A stretch of DNA of 23,230 nucleotides from a virus, in IMG/VR virus record IMGVR_UViG_3300027824_000020, positions 1 to 23,230 of that record. One strand, 5' to 3'. The position numbers were made by a program, and so were the translations under genes. Below, one piece after another: positions 2,639 to 18,224 of this stretch. Each line of letters opens with the position of its first letter. The first letter of the stretch is position 1. Under the pieces are notes generated by a model, which had not been told where the DNA came from, did no database searches, and saw only the letters and a list, made by a program, of their open reading frames with translations.

Positions 2639-2945
2639 GCCGCCGGCCGAGATCTGCCTGACGGCACTGCTGAAAGCCTATCTCGCGGAGAAGGAACCCG
2701 ACGGTAAACGAACGAACGCCCGGGCTATCATCGAAGCGCTTGGCACAGTGGCCAAAGAGGGTAAAACAGCGGCGATACAGCAAATCTTCGATCGCAACGA
2801 CGGTTTGCTCCAGCCGATCCTGGAGGGGCCCGTGCTCGACCTCGAGGCCGTGGCGCGAAGGATGAGGGAGAAAGTCACTGAACGGGCTGGAATCACTGGC
2901 GGACCTGCTCTACCTGACCCGGAACGATCCGGACCTGTTCAATGA
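2577..2945 (+). CDS. DUF5681 domain protein
   Basis: A 122-residue protein beginning with the DUF5681 signature: AKKPRGRPFKPGTSGNPRGR at residues 2-21, a basic Gly-rich patch typical of this phage-associated family. A helical body follows (ALLKAYLAEKEPDGKRTNAR, IIEALGTVAKEGKTAAIQQI). GTG 2577 is chosen because GGAG lies at 2567-2570 with six-base spacing and because the family starts close to this motif. An upstream ATG at 2478 would add an unrelated Arg/Ser-rich extension. DUF5681 genes commonly sit next to terminase genes. The molecular role is not established, and it may assist packaging or act as the small terminase itself. Its 3' end overlaps the terminase start by 68 bases. Confidence 0.8.
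   Translation: MAKKPRGRPFKPGTSGNPRGRPPAEICLTALLKAYLAEKEPDGKRTNARAIIEALGTVAKEGKTAAIQQIFDRNDGLLQPILEGPVLDLEAVARRMREKVTERAGITGGPALPDPERSGPVQ
2865..2870 (+). promoter_or_regulatory. Shine-Dalgarno AGGGAG that supports a CTG start for the terminase
   Basis: AGGGAG lies inside the end of the DUF5681 gene with exactly seven bases to CTG 2878. No ATG, GTG or TTG exists in the terminase frame between the in-frame TGA at 2863-2865 and GTG 3022, yet the translated sequence between 2878 and 3022 is protein-like and leads straight into the Walker A strand. The site therefore decides the most likely start. Confidence 0.6.
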
Positions 2946-4320
2946 GCTGTTCGTCGACGACGACCGGCACTTTTGGAGCCGCCAGCGCGAGCTGTGCGAG
3001 GCGATCGTCAAGTATCGGACCGTGGCCTGTTACTCCGGCAACATGGTCGGCAAGGACTTCACGATCGGCCGGATCATCTGGTGGTGGTTGTACACGCGGC
3101 CGGACAGCCTGGTGATCGTCACGGGACCAAGTCAGACGAACCTGGGAAGTGTGACCTGGAAGGAAGTACGGCGGGCTCGACCCGCCCTGGCCAGTGCTCG
3201 ACTGAGCCGCGGTGTGAAGACCTCGCCCCAGCAAGTGGACTGCGGTAACGGCTGGCAAGCGCTGGGGTTCTCCACCACGTCGATCGAGCGAGCATCGGGC
3301 CAGCACAACGAGCAGCTCCTCGTCGTCGTCGACGAGGCTTCTGGAGTTGAAGAGGAGATCTGGGACGCGATCGAGAGCCTTGGTTACGAGCGGATGGTGG
3401 CCATCGGCAACCCGATCCGGGCTGAAGGCCGATTCGTCGACCTGATCCGCCAGGCAGACACCGACACCGCCGACAACGTCCCTCCCCGGCTCGCCGTGAA
3501 GGCGATCCAGATCCCGAGCACGGATTCACCGCATGCCAACCTCGATAAAAGCCCCTGGGGAATCGCCGATCGAACCTGGCTTGAATCCTGTTACCGACGC
3601 TATGGCCGCGACAGCCTCTGGGTCCGCAGCCACATCCGGGCCGAGATCCCGGAAATCTCAAGCGACATCCTCATTCCGCCCGCATGGCTCGATAGGGCAA
3701 CAGCCGTGCAACGCCAATCATTTCCCCCGAGTCACCCCGTCCACCGTACTCGACGAATGGCTGTGGATCTTGGTGAAGGGGTAGGCCGGGACTCGACCGC
3801 AATCCTTGTGAGGGACGCTGATGGGATCCTCGATTGTCACGCCGGGAGTGCTCTATCTCTGGCTGATGCAGCGCAAGAAGTCGCGCGCCTTAGCCGCGTC
3901 TGGGCAATCCCCGCCGAACGGGTCAGTTACGACAAGCTTGGCGTCGGCCGCGACTTCCGCAACCACCTCGTCAGGCACGGACTCGGCGACGCCGTCGGCT
4001 ACGCCGGATCTGGACGGCCTCAAGACCGCAAAGCATTCACCAATCTCCGCAGCGAAGCGGCATGGAAGGCACGACGCCGGCTAGACCCCGAGCGGCACCT
4101 CGACGACCGCTACCCGCTGTCGAGCCGGCAGCCGCCGTTCCATATCCCACCGCGAGCCTGGTGGGCCTTGCTCCGCGAGGACCTCGAGGCGCTGACCTAC
4201 GACCTGGTCGGCAACCAGACTCGGCTGATCAAGAAAGAAGACTGGTGCGACATCCTCGGGCGCAGCCCCGACCGTGGCGACGCGTTCATCCAGAGCTTTT
4301 TCCAGGAGCCGATGAGGTGA
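2878..4320 (+). CDS. terL: phage terminase large subunit
   Basis: The DNA-packaging motor: an ATPase plus a nuclease that pumps DNA into the prohead through the portal. With a CTG start it is 480 residues. The adenine-binding helix region FWSRQRELCEAIVKYRTVA precedes Walker A GNMVGKD (about 54-60). Walker B is LLVVVDEA (D152, E153), and IAIGNP-like coupling follows. The C-terminal RNase H-like nuclease shows acidic residues in MAVDLGEG (D297), SYDKLGVG (D352) and SPDRGDA (about D465/D468). A start at GTG 3022 would remove the strand and helix before Walker A, which is why CTG 2878 with its AGGGAG is preferred. The length is normal for TerL. It is translationally coupled to the gene after it (GTGA). 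Confidence 0.92.
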   Translation: MNGLESLADLLYLTRNDPDLFNELFVDDDRHFWSRQRELCEAIVKYRTVACYSGNMVGKDFTIGRIIWWWLYTRPDSLVIVTGPSQTNLGSVTWKEVRRARPALASARLSRGVKTSPQQVDCGNGWQALGFSTTSIERASGQHNEQLLVVVDEASGVEEEIWDAIESLGYERMVAIGNPIRAEGRFVDLIRQADTDTADNVPPRLAVKAIQIPSTDSPHANLDKSPWGIADRTWLESCYRRYGRDSLWVRSHIRAEIPEISSDILIPPAWLDRATAVQRQSFPPSHPVHRTRRMAVDLGEGVGRDSTAILVRDADGILDCHAGSALSLADAAQEVARLSRVWAIPAERVSYDKLGVGRDFRNHLVRHGLGDAVGYAGSGRPQDRKAFTNLRSEAAWKARRRLDPERHLDDRYPLSSRQPPFHIPPRAWWALLREDLEALTYDLVGNQTRLIKKEDWCDILGRSPDRGDAFIQSFFQEPMR

Positions 4321-4580
4321 CCAAGACCAAGCAAACAATCCTGGACAGGATCAACTCTGACTTCGCCTTCCGCCCCTGTCCGATCGGCGCGGACCCGATC
4401 CGGCATCACGACCGCGAGGCCGTGCGCTGCGTGCTGGGTGTCGCGGCCTTCGACCTGGCGCGGATCTGCCCGTCGTCTCGCGAACTGAACCACGCGCTCA
4501 ACAAGCTCGAGGAGACCGTGCACTGGGCACACAGTGCCATCGACCGGCACGGCGTGTCGAGCCCGGCGGAGGACGCATGA
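4317..4580 (+). CDS. Acb2/Tad1-domain protein, putative cyclic-nucleotide sponge (anti-CBASS)
   Basis: An 87-residue protein. GTG 4317 overlaps the terminase stop, with AGGAG at 4304-4308. After an N-terminal strand/helix with FAFRPCP (about 16-22), it carries the helical-hairpin pattern of the Acb2/Tad1 family: DREAVRCVLGVAAFDLARIC (32-51), then PSSRELNHALNKLEETVHWA (52-71) and HSAIDR. The block with P-x-SRE-x4-AL-x-KLEE-x-VxWAxxAI is what I recognise from phage T4 Vs.4/Acb2-like proteins. Those are small oligomeric phage proteins that bind cyclic di- and trinucleotides and so block CBASS (and some related) immune signalling. Length (about 90 aa) fits. The family call is by pattern memory. 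Ligand specificity is not readable here. The alternative is a family member with another ligand or none. Confidence 0.75.
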   Translation: MTKTKQTILDRINSDFAFRPCPIGADPIRHHDREAVRCVLGVAAFDLARICPSSRELNHALNKLEETVHWAHSAIDRHGVSSPAEDA

Positions 4581-4804
4581 TCACCGTCGAAACACCATCG
4601 CGGATCATCCCGCTGACCTATGATGTCGGCGAAGTGGTCTACCACCGGCTCGCGAGCGACCGACATCGCGGCATGGTGACCGGGATCCAGATCCAGCCGG
4701 ACGGAATCTCCTACTGGGTCACGTGGGACGATCGGCATGAGACGCGGCACTACGCGATCGAGCTGAGCACGGAGTTCGTGCCCGACTACGAAACAAGCGG
4801 ATGA
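4577..4804 (+). CDS. small beta-rich hypothetical protein (75 aa)
   Basis: It starts with an ATGA overlap on the Acb2-like stop and has GGAGG at 4567-4571. The sequence YDVGEVVYHRLASDRHRGMV followed by TGIQIQ and SYWVTWDD reads as a small SH3-like barrel of the kind found in YodC/DUF2158-type proteins, where GEVVY is the first strand and YWVTWDD a later one. No catalytic residues are visible. Its tight coupling to the Acb2-like gene means both are made together, so it may be another early or counter-defence protein, but there is no direct sign of function. Confidence 0.7.
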   Translation: MITVETPSRIIPLTYDVGEVVYHRLASDRHRGMVTGIQIQPDGISYWVTWDDRHETRHYAIELSTEFVPDYETSG

Positions 4805-5016
4805 AGATCATTCCACGTCCCACTCGCAACGAGGTCTTTCCGACCGAGCCCCCGGGCCTTTACCAGCACGCGCTGGGCCGGGATTGCTGGTGCCGGCCCG
4901 TGATACTGGGCGCCGTGATCATCCATAGACCCTGGGCCGAGTGCGGGCGCGAGGTGGCGGAGACGCTGCTCGCAAGCGATGTCTTCCCCTGCAACTGGAA
5001 TGCGAACCGAGCATGA
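4801..5016 (+). CDS. small hypothetical protein (71 aa)
   Basis: ATG 4801 overlaps the previous stop (ATGA), and its own TGA at 5014-5016 overlaps the methylase ATG, so it is held in place by coupling on both sides. The protein has three cysteines (C30, C32, C49 region) around CWCRPVILGAVIIHRPWAEC, and a C-terminal CNWNANRA. A hydrophobic strand in the middle (PVILGAVII) may be a core strand rather than a membrane helix. Nothing matches a family I know. Its place immediately before the adenine methylase may mean a joint role in DNA modification or its control. Confidence 0.65.
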   Translation: MKIIPRPTRNEVFPTEPPGLYQHALGRDCWCRPVILGAVIIHRPWAECGREVAETLLASDVFPCNWNANRA

Positions 5017-6110
5017 TCCTGAAAGCTCCCTTCCCCTACTTCGGCGGCAAGTCGCGCGCCGCCGCTCTCGTCTGGCCTCGCTTCGGCGTGGTGCGGAACT
5101 ATGTCGAGCCCTTCTTCGGCTCGGGCGCCATGCTCCTGGCCCGGCCCGAGAGCTGGACCGGCACCGAGACCGTGAACGACATCGATGGCTTGCTCAGCAA
5201 CTTCTGGCGGGCCCTGAAGGATGATCCGGCGGCCGTCGCGAAGTGGGCCGACTGGCCAGTAAACGAGAACGACCTGCACGCCCGCCATGCCTGGCTGGTG
5301 CAGCGCAAGGACTCGCTCCAGGCTCGGCTCGAGGGCGACCCGGACTTCTACTGCCCCAAATCGGCCGGCTGGTGGGTCTGGGGCATGGCCTGTTGGATCG
5401 CGGGTGGGTTCTGCTCAGGCAAGGGGCCGTGGCATGTCCAGGACGTCGATGGAGTTCGCCAGCTCGTGCGCCTGGGGACTGCGGGCCAGGGTGTGAACCG
5501 CAAGCTCGTGCACCTGGGGAACTCGGGCCAGGGTGTGAACCGCAAGCTCGTGCACCTGGGGAACTCGGGCCAGGGTGTGAACCGCAAGCTCGTGAAAATC
5601 AGCGCCCGCTCAAATGGCGGGATTGGCCTTCCTCGAAACATGGATCTGATCACCTACTTTCACTCCTTCGCGGACCGCCTGGCCCGCGTGCGGGTCTGCT
5701 GTGGCGACTGGAAGCGCGTCTGCGGGCCGACCCCGACGGTCAAGATGGGACTCACGGCGGTATTCCTTGATCCGCCCTATGCCGACACGGCCAAGCGGTG
5801 TCCCGACCTCTACCGTATCGACAGCGAATCGGTCGCTCACGACGTCCGCGAGTGGGCCCTAGAGCACGGTGACGACCCCATGATGCGGATCGCCCTGTGC
5901 GGCTACGAGGGCGAGCACAAGATGCCGCGAGGCTGGACCTGCATCCGGGGCAAGGCGACAAACGGCGGCTATGCCTCGCAGAAGCGATCCCCCGGCGGCC
6001 ATTCGGTCAACTCGCACCGTGAGCGCATCTGGTTCTCTAAATATTGTCTGAAGCCTGCGACCACGCGTCGCTCTTCCGTCTCTGTGCCCTCTGTGCTCTC
6101 TGTGGTTTGA
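5013..6110 (+). CDS. D12-class N6-adenine DNA methyltransferase (Dam-like)
   Basis: A 365-residue enzyme that should transfer a methyl group from SAM to adenine N6. N-terminal FPYFGGKS (7-14) and EPFFGSGAM (32-40) form the SAM-binding motifs X and I. The catalytic motif IV DPPY is at 253-256 in VFLDPPYAD. The conserved end NSHRERIWFS is present. Between the SAM site and the catalytic motif lies a run of 14-residue units (GQGVNRKLVHLGNS), encoded by a 42-bp tandem repeat. ATG 5013 overlaps the previous stop, and an upstream frame from 4941 reads that gene out of frame. The last 16 or so residues (RRSSVSVPSVLSVV) are encoded by an interspersed repeat that seems to have replaced the original 3' end. 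In phages such enzymes usually protect DNA from host restriction. Confidence 0.9.
   Translation: MILKAPFPYFGGKSRAAALVWPRFGVVRNYVEPFFGSGAMLLARPESWTGTETVNDIDGLLSNFWRALKDDPAAVAKWADWPVNENDLHARHAWLVQRKDSLQARLEGDPDFYCPKSAGWWVWGMACWIAGGFCSGKGPWHVQDVDGVRQLVRLGTAGQGVNRKLVHLGNSGQGVNRKLVHLGNSGQGVNRKLVKISARSNGGIGLPRNMDLITYFHSFADRLARVRVCCGDWKRVCGPTPTVKMGLTAVFLDPPYADTAKRCPDLYRIDSESVAHDVREWALEHGDDPMMRIALCGYEGEHKMPRGWTCIRGKATNGGYASQKRSPGGHSVNSHRERIWFSKYCLKPATTRRSSVSVPSVLSVV
5461..5586 (+). repeat. three 42-bp tandem units inside the methylase gene
   Basis: The units run 5461-5502, 5503-5544 and 5545-5586, followed by the first 8 bases of a fourth. Units 2 and 3 are identical, and unit 1 differs near CGCCTGGGGACTGCG. 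Each unit adds 14 residues in frame. The perfect identity of units 2 and 3 points to recent duplication, and copy number could change without breaking the reading frame. Confidence 0.9.
6071..6108. repeat. interspersed TCTGTGNNN element at the methylase/portal junction
   Basis: Three 9-base units follow one another: TCTGTGCCC (6081-6089), TCTGTGCTC (6090-6098) and TCTGTGGTT (6099-6107), preceded by CTCTTCCGTC. The reverse complement, ACCACAGAGAGCACAGAGG, is a sequence I know as a recurrent interspersed repeat in varied environmental bacteria and archaea. It supplies the last codons and the stop of the methylase and lies only 8 bases before the portal ATG. A TTG-started portal frame would read it as LCALCALCG, which is the usual sign of this repeat mistranslated. 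Confidence 0.7.
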
Positions 6111-6115
6111 TCGCT

Positions 6116-7720
6116 ATGGCCGACACCGACCCCCGTTTATTCCCCGCCCTCCCCAACGTCGGCGGCTCTTTCAGTTCCGACGATCGCGCGTGGATAATCC
6201 GGGAAGTCGAGTCCGGTCTGCGCAACCACCGGCCGCGGCTCGCATCCGCCATCGAGAACCAGGCCTTCTACGACCTGGAGTCCGACCGCTATCAGCCGAG
6301 GCGCGAAGCTGAGACTGAGTTTGATTTCGCCGGCCGTCCTCGTCGTCAGTCTGGATTTGTTCAGCAGGCCGTGGATCGACTCTGCGAACACACCTACAAT
6401 CCAGGCCCTCAGAGGACTGTCGTTGGCGATGGCCTTGCTGATTCCCTGCTTGCCCAGGTCTACGAAACCAACCACATCGACTGCGTGATGCAGCACGCTG
6501 AGTGCCAGGCGACCCTGAATGACGTCTGCGCCGTGCAGATCAAGTGCACGAACGACAAGGACAAGCCTGTCGATCTCCAGCTCTGGGGCGGCGACGAGTT
6601 CACGGTCTTCACCGACCCGGAAGATCCCCGGCAGGCGTTCGCGGTTGTCACGATCGACCGCTACAATGAACGCACGCGGTACCGGCTCTGGTTTGAGGAT
6701 GAAGTCCGAACCTTCCTCACTGAACAGTATCAGAGCGACAAGACGGCCGGGGCCCGGATCGCGCTCGAGACCAGAGAGCGCGAGAAGAACACGTATGGCT
6801 GCATACCTTTCGCTTTCCTGCACTATCGTGCTCCAGTTCGACAATTCTGGACGCCTGGTGTTGGAACGTTCCTGCGTAAGGCAGAACTCCGGATTAACGA
6901 CCGACTTTCAGAGCTTGATGAACTCATCAGCAAATACGGGCGACCCATCGGTGTTTTCCGAAACGTCAGCCCTACTTACACTCCTGAGATCGGCCCTGGA
7001 AGATTCCTGCGCCTATGCCGAGGCGGAACAGGCTACTCGGGCGAAGGGTATGCCGACGGCGGCGAGCCCTCCGCCGAGTATCTCCAAGCCCAGCTAGCGA
7101 TCGAGAGCATCTGGGTCGACCTCGAGAAGTACATGAAGCAGGTGGCGGCGGCGGTCAATCTGCCGTTCACGGCCCTCGAGCTTCAGTACGACGACGCGGC
7201 CAGTGGAATCGCGCTGGTCATCAAGTCGGCGCCGCTCCTGACCCGGGCCCGCCAGCGGCGGCCGATCTACCAGCTCGCCGAGCTGGGCTTGGCCCGCAAG
7301 GTCCTGACCGCCTGCGGCAATCACTACGGCCACGCCGACCTGCTCGAGCAGGCGAAGCAGCTCCAGCTCCTGCTGGCCTGGGCCGAGCCCCGCATCCCTA
7401 TCCCCGGCCCGGACCGTGACCAGTCCGACGAGTGGGAGATGCAGGTCGGCATCCGGTCGCGGATCGGCGTCTGCATGGAGCGGTACGGGCTCAACCATGA
7501 CCAGGCCGTCGAGCACATGAAGCAGGTGGCCGAGGATGAGGAAATCGCCAAGCAGGTCTTGCCCCAGGAGCTGACCCCGCCAGCCTCGGAGACGATGCCC
7601 TCCGAGGAACAGGACCAACGGCAGGAAGACCGGGCCGACGCGGACGCCACCCGCGGAGCAGAACAGGCCGGCGACTCCCCCTCCGGTGGGCCCGCAGACC
7701 CGACCAAAGCGAGTGACTGA
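6116..7720 (+). CDS. phage portal protein
   Basis: A 534-residue protein with portal character: an N-terminal helical part with AFYDLESDRYQPRRE, a central beta wing (QIKCTNDKDKPVDLQLWGGD, then FTVFTDPEDPRQAFAVVT), a PFAFLHYRAPV-type strand, a long clip/stem helix region (RINDRLSELDELISKYG) and a crown-side Gln/Asp/Pro-rich tail. The portal is the dodecameric ring at one head vertex through which DNA enters and leaves and on which terminase docks. Length and position after terminase and before scaffold and capsid agree. ATG 6116 is preferred, since an upstream TTG would translate the repeat. The start has no Shine-Dalgarno, because the repeat fills the leader. Portal subfamily is not decided. 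Confidence 0.85.
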   Translation: MADTDPRLFPALPNVGGSFSSDDRAWIIREVESGLRNHRPRLASAIENQAFYDLESDRYQPRREAETEFDFAGRPRRQSGFVQQAVDRLCEHTYNPGPQRTVVGDGLADSLLAQVYETNHIDCVMQHAECQATLNDVCAVQIKCTNDKDKPVDLQLWGGDEFTVFTDPEDPRQAFAVVTIDRYNERTRYRLWFEDEVRTFLTEQYQSDKTAGARIALETREREKNTYGCIPFAFLHYRAPVRQFWTPGVGTFLRKAELRINDRLSELDELISKYGRPIGVFRNVSPTYTPEIGPGRFLRLCRGGTGYSGEGYADGGEPSAEYLQAQLAIESIWVDLEKYMKQVAAAVNLPFTALELQYDDAASGIALVIKSAPLLTRARQRRPIYQLAELGLARKVLTACGNHYGHADLLEQAKQLQLLLAWAEPRIPIPGPDRDQSDEWEMQVGIRSRIGVCMERYGLNHDQAVEHMKQVAEDEEIAKQVLPQELTPPASETMPSEEQDQRQEDRADADATRGAEQAGDSPSGGPADPTKASD

Positions 7721-17807: not shown

Positions 17808-18224
17808 ATGGCCTACCTGCTGCTCGAAAATGGATCGAAGCTGCTTCTCGAGGGCGGCACGGGGCGGCTCTTGCTCGAGGGGCCGATCTCGTTCTATCTG
17901 CCCTACGAATTCACCTCGGTTCTGATCACGGCCGGCAACGCCAACCCGTTCAACGTCGACCCCGAGCAGACTTCGCTCATCCTGGCCGGCAACGCCAACC
18001 CGTTCAACGTCGACCCCGAGCAGACTTCGCTCATCCTGGCCGGCAACGTGAACCCGTTCAACGTCGACCCCGAACAGACCGTGCTGATCAGCGCCGGCAA
18101 CGTGGATCCGTTCGCCATCGACCCCGAACAGACCGTGCTCATCAGCGTTGGTAATACAAACCCCTTCGACATCGACCCCGAGCGAACCGTGCTCATCACG
18201 GTGGGCCTGACCAGCGCAGATTAA
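17808..18224 (+). CDS. 18-residue-repeat protein
   Basis: A 138-residue protein starting one base after the fibre gene's stop. The N-terminus has a smaller repeat of LLLEN/LLLEGG (residues 4-25). Residues 42-131 are five 18-residue units of the form AGNxNPFNVDPEQTxLIL, the last two more diverged (VGNTNPFDIDPERTVLIT). Regular strand and turn spacing suggests a solenoid or stacked beta structure, and the Asn/Asp positions could bind calcium, though no EF-hand or RTX consensus is present. No family is recognised. Coupling to the fibre gene suggests a fibre-associated spacer whose length may vary with repeat number. Confidence 0.6.
   Translation: MAYLLLENGSKLLLEGGTGRLLLEGPISFYLPYEFTSVLITAGNANPFNVDPEQTSLILAGNANPFNVDPEQTSLILAGNVNPFNVDPEQTVLISAGNVDPFAIDPEQTVLISVGNTNPFDIDPERTVLITVGLTSAD
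17931..18200 (+). repeat. five 54-bp tandem units inside the repeat-protein gene
   Basis: The units run 17931-17984, 17985-18038, 18039-18092, 18093-18146 and 18147-18200. Units 1 and 2 are identical base for base. Unit 3 differs at a few codons, and units 4 and 5 more. The gradient of identity indicates recent expansion at the 5' end. Every unit is a multiple of three, so copy number can change in frame. Confidence 0.92.

Follow-up and report, generated by a model that had tools for sequence, protein, structure and literature searches.

The gene at 4317–4580 (+ strand) of the window, the whole 23,230-nucleotide stretch of viral DNA analysed here, is probably an accessory gene for a divergent cyclic-oligonucleotide sponge of the Acb2 type, located in the slot between the terminase large subunit gene (terL) and the portal-position gene of a planctomycete phage lineage. 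Profile comparisons, phylogeny and a structural model together make it credible that the 87-aa product represents a new branch, distantly related to Acb2. An initial annotation had recognized an Acb2/Tad1 hairpin in the protein, and profile (51.8 bits), tree and predicted fold all bear this out.

The reading frame opens with a GTG at 4317 that overlaps the TerL stop as GTGA, an overlap already pointed out in the initial annotation. A Shine–Dalgarno-like AGGAG, read from the sequence, lies at 4304–4308 (+), 8 nt before the GTG, and the start is backed by the relatives, whose ORFs open at the same residue. Residues 52–75 carry the previously described motif P-x-SRE-x4-AL-x-KLEE-x-VxWAxxAI. Across seven related genes (21 pairs), the median dN/dS is 0.28; the gene is under purifying selection and is thus a real, constrained gene.

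By sequence profile, the 87-aa protein belongs to the Acb2/Tad1 hairpin superfamily. The search against the hairpin family that had been proposed as a check returned phrog_1454 (PHROGs; E 3.4e-10, residues 10–80) and the Pfam family PF24729, Acb2_Tad1_hairpin (E 1e-4, 22.9 bits), the latter below its gathering cut-off of 27 bits. This shortfall counts against the sponge reading, and we therefore name the protein a divergent relative and not a formal Pfam member. The relative L001 scores 19 bits in PF24729, and T4 Vs.4/Acb2 scores 71.4 bits. Relatives were collected and 68 were aligned; a second version, with the loci of annotated phage records left out, held 64 members, all of which match PF24729. 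A family profile built with the window's branch left out scored the 87-aa protein at 51.8 bits over residues 10–79, against 7.3 bits for the best of 5,000 in the shuffle control with the same profile, and the similarity is not due to chance. The family profile also matched the solved Acb2 homolog 43 (9PTQ) with E 1.4e-9, Tad1 with E 3e-4 and T4 Vs.4 weakly, and direct profile comparison of the 87-aa protein with T4 Acb2 was likewise weak, covering ~22 residues. A single-sequence phmmer search of the PDB returned only designed helical repeat proteins, with no stretch passing alone; a profile of the branch alignment found no relative in the genome contigs, and PADLOC and NCBIfam gave nothing for this gene.

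In the tree, seven genes including that of the window form one branch inside the family (support 100/99), nested in a supported set of 20 (99/97). The stem of this branch is long, at 2.45 changes per column, which counts against the sponge reading; the long-branched L083 joins the branch, which makes its precise neighbour uncertain.

The AlphaFold2 model (pLDDT 91.5) consists of helices at residues 3–15, 27–50 and 55–78, the last two forming a helical hairpin preceded by a loop with F-A-F-R-P-C-P. Such an arrangement fits the Acb2 protomer, described as one short helix and two long antiparallel helices (PMC12043709). The ‘Phe-rich N-terminal strand’ of the initial annotation is not borne out, as the model places helix 3–15 there and contains no strand anywhere. 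Foldseek comparison with viral models gave many top matches named Acb2/Tad1 hairpin, with probabilities of 0.96–1.00. When the same small helical monomer was searched against the PDB and by VIA-align, only common helical bundles were returned and Acb2 was not retrieved. A control model of the family member L026 ranked the T4 Vs.4–cGAMP complex (7UQ2) top at a probability of 0.99, with Tad1 and Acb2 lower down; 8H2X was also among its matches. On our reading, the miss of the window model in the PDB probably reflects divergence and small size and not another fold.

The genomic setting was examined in the window and its relatives. The listed TerL ORF (3022–4320, +; phrog_2, E 3.2e-25) probably has its true start upstream: the frame is open at 2866–3022, and the relatives' TerL aligns ~50 residues farther upstream than the listed GTG at 3022. 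This stretch holds no ATG, GTG or TTG, and CTG 2878 or another rare start may serve. Upstream of the terminase genes, positions 693–1439 encode a phage sigma-70 factor with regions 1.2, 2 and 4 (PF00140, PF04542, PF04545; phrog_351, E 2e-28), and a 54-bp tandem repeat in five copies occupies 17925–18198. Downstream of the candidate sponge gene, a 75-aa neighbour (4577–4804, +), a 71-aa neighbour (4801–5016, +) and a D12-class N6-adenine DNA methyltransferase (5013–6110, +; PF02086, E 6.2e-7; phrog_56, E 1.1e-20; ATG 5013 is its preferred start) each overlap the preceding gene as ATGA, in agreement with the chain drawn in the initial annotation. Profile matches to the methylase cover mainly its N-terminal part, and a 42-bp in-frame tandem repeat of three copies lies inside its gene at 5457–5594. 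The right border of the slot is the portal-position gene (6116–7720, +), assigned by position and synteny with no family hit, and 85–92% identical among close relatives.

Comparison of TerL relatives revealed the terL–portal gap as a variable slot that can hold DNA methylases. The candidate sponge gene occurs in seven of the nine phages whose portals are at least 85% identical, the window counted: the window, L001, L093, L095, L097 (= L010), L098 (= L012) and L099. L094 and L096 (portals 88–92% identical) lack it, as do more distant relatives. The slot of L096 holds only the 71-aa gene and that of L094 only a short methylase remnant; in L100 and L102, which have more distant portals, ~35 bp separate terL from the portal gene. 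L095 carries a 590-aa N6/N4 methylase (PF01555, E 3e-41), and the whole D12 methylase is found only in the window phage among its close relatives. In L094, a 63-aa ORF (L094:7301–7492) fuses residues 1–43 of the D12 methylase with a short tail resembling its C-terminal end, and is a deletion remnant. The 75-aa neighbour, which has no family, is kept beside the candidate sponge gene in L001 (68%); the 71-aa neighbour has homologues in L096, L097, L098 and L099, that of L096 standing without the candidate sponge gene. Neither neighbour matched anything in phage records. Another small conserved gene (~75 aa, ILSG and TRGRGHS motifs) lies between terL and the candidate sponge gene in three relatives (L001:4901–5128, L093:6338–6595 and L097:7302–7529) and is absent from the window; it matched no Pfam family (two tested). 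Relatives do not share the overlap with terL, having a gap of tens to hundreds of bases or another small gene at this point. The candidate sponge gene thus sits where content varies between close relatives, which fits a dispensable, counter-defence-like accessory gene and not a part of the packaging machinery. The counter-defence island suggested in the initial annotation is plausible inasmuch as the slot is variable and can hold methylases, but the two small neighbours are without known function.

TerL relatives were found in contigs of a Planctomycetaceae metagenome-assembled genome (MAG), and a planctomycete host for the window phage is possible on this indirect evidence. Among 294 genomes from the phylum of this MAG, 15 (~5%) encode a SMODS nucleotidyltransferase (CD-NTase), so that signals to sponge exist in the phylum; the low share nonetheless counts against the sponge reading. 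An Acb2/Tad1 hairpin protein scored over the cut-off in eight of the same 294 genomes, and the hairpin family is very common in phages. The wider range envisaged in the initial annotation therefore holds in a modest form: by sequence, the window adds a distinct branch to the phylum and not its first record of the superfamily, since family members and CD-NTases are already present there.

How far the branch has kept the binding pocket can be judged against T4 Acb2, in which mutation of Y8 disrupts binding and F82C and T68M weaken it (PMC12657218, PMC12657230). The T4 register, taken from PF24729 coordinates (T4 7–83, and relatives) and hhalign, equates Y8, T68 and F82 with positions 18, 62 and 76. 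At the Y8 equivalent the aromatic persists: the 87-aa protein has F18, and each of the seven branch members has F or Y. All 68 aligned sequences share R37. At the T68 and F82 equivalents, where T4 has T and F, the 87-aa protein has N62 and D76. The rest of the sampled family is nearly uniform at several positions, with T at 62 in 59 of 64 sequences, N at 72 in all 64, A at 76 in 63 and H at 19 in 62; the conservation around W70 is partly inflated, because relatives were found with a pattern located there. The branch has changed jointly (N72 to H/Q, A76 to D, H19 to R, Y33 to R and T62 to N), positions 19, 33, 58, 59, 62, 72 and 76 being altered together, and 3–4 residues are inserted in the loop preceding the hairpin. 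Since near-invariant residues have changed while the Y8 aromatic is kept, the ligand range may differ, and the branch substitutions may have altered ligand choice. A bolder version, which we regard as doubtful, is that the branch remodelled its pocket through the changes at 72, 76, 62 and 19 and the loop insertion so as to capture a second messenger outside the binding range of known Acb2/Tad1 proteins, which would point to an undescribed nucleotide-based planctomycete defence.

This joint change of near-invariant residues counts against the sponge reading as judged from the alignment, and together with the loop insertion and the long stem it favours an alternative in which the protein is a superfamily member by descent whose cyclic-nucleotide binding has been lost or changed, its hairpin now binding another ligand, a protein or a different planctomycete second messenger. 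Continued purifying selection also speaks for that alternative, in showing that some function is kept. Retention of the Y8-equivalent aromatic and of R37 speaks against it, however, as do the variation that working Acb2 proteins already show at these positions (in T4, the 72 equivalent is C and the 76 equivalent is F) and a presence/absence pattern in a variable slot that fits counter-defence; we consider it unlikely, though the strongest competitor to a sponge. Far less probable is a Tad1-type anti-Thoeris sponge for gcADPR in place of an Acb2-type one. The hairpin SRE-xx-AL-x-x-LEE-x-x-W is common to Tad1 (positions 47–67 of the family profile in the E 3e-4 match), but the 87-aa, all-helical model is without the N-terminal sheet of Tad1, four-stranded and antiparallel in the protomer (PMC12043709). 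A packaging or head-assembly accessory, such as a terminase partner translated with terL, would account for the site between terL and portal and for the window's overlap of the gene's GTG with the terL stop, yet relatives carry the gene without that overlap, and several actinophages and Paenibacillus phages have their homologues among replication genes. This too is highly improbable, and a terminase-partner role in particular was rejected, since the close relatives L094 and L096 lack the gene.

The preferred reading of a divergent Acb2-type sponge implies that the 87-aa protomers would assemble into an Acb2-like hexamer, in which residues around F18, R37, N62 and 72–76 would line a pocket between protomers. 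The predicted sponge would sequester host cyclic di- or trinucleotides, and CBASS-like effectors would stay inactive once these were removed. If the protein is indeed a sponge, its ligand would reveal which nucleotide signals planctomycetes turn on phages, in a phylum where nucleotide-signal defences have been little studied. The branch-specific substitutions provide a natural experiment on the hairpin residues that determine ligand choice, and the terL–portal slot is a practical site in which to seek further counter-defence genes of this phage lineage.

Among characterized systems, T4 Vs.4/Acb2 (7UQ2) resembles the window protein in length (88 versus 87 aa), in its short N-terminal element, in an aromatic–basic–P motif (Y8-K-P in T4, F18-R-P in the window) and in the K-L-x-E-x-x-x-W-A helical hairpin, whereas the window protein has an SRE turn and N62 for T68, H72 for C78 and D76 for F82. 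Of the solved structures, Acb2 homolog 43 (9PTQ) matches the family profile best, over 58 positions, and differs in hairpin details, lacking the W and having FFAT for MWAN. Tad1 (7UAV, 8KBB and others) has the C-terminal hairpin motif in common with the window protein, whereas its added N-terminal beta-sheet domain has no counterpart in the strandless 87-aa model. The PF24729/phrog_1454 proteins of actinophages and Paenibacillus phages, some already annotated as cyclic-nucleotide sequestering, show the same architecture as the window protein, with the motif F-x-[YF]-H-...-IR-...-CPxSRExSLAxTKLEEAxxWANAAIAR; the window branch is set apart from them by FxFR-P-C-P, by the 3–4 residue insertion and by NHALN and WAHxAIDRH, which replace SLALT and WANAAIARN.
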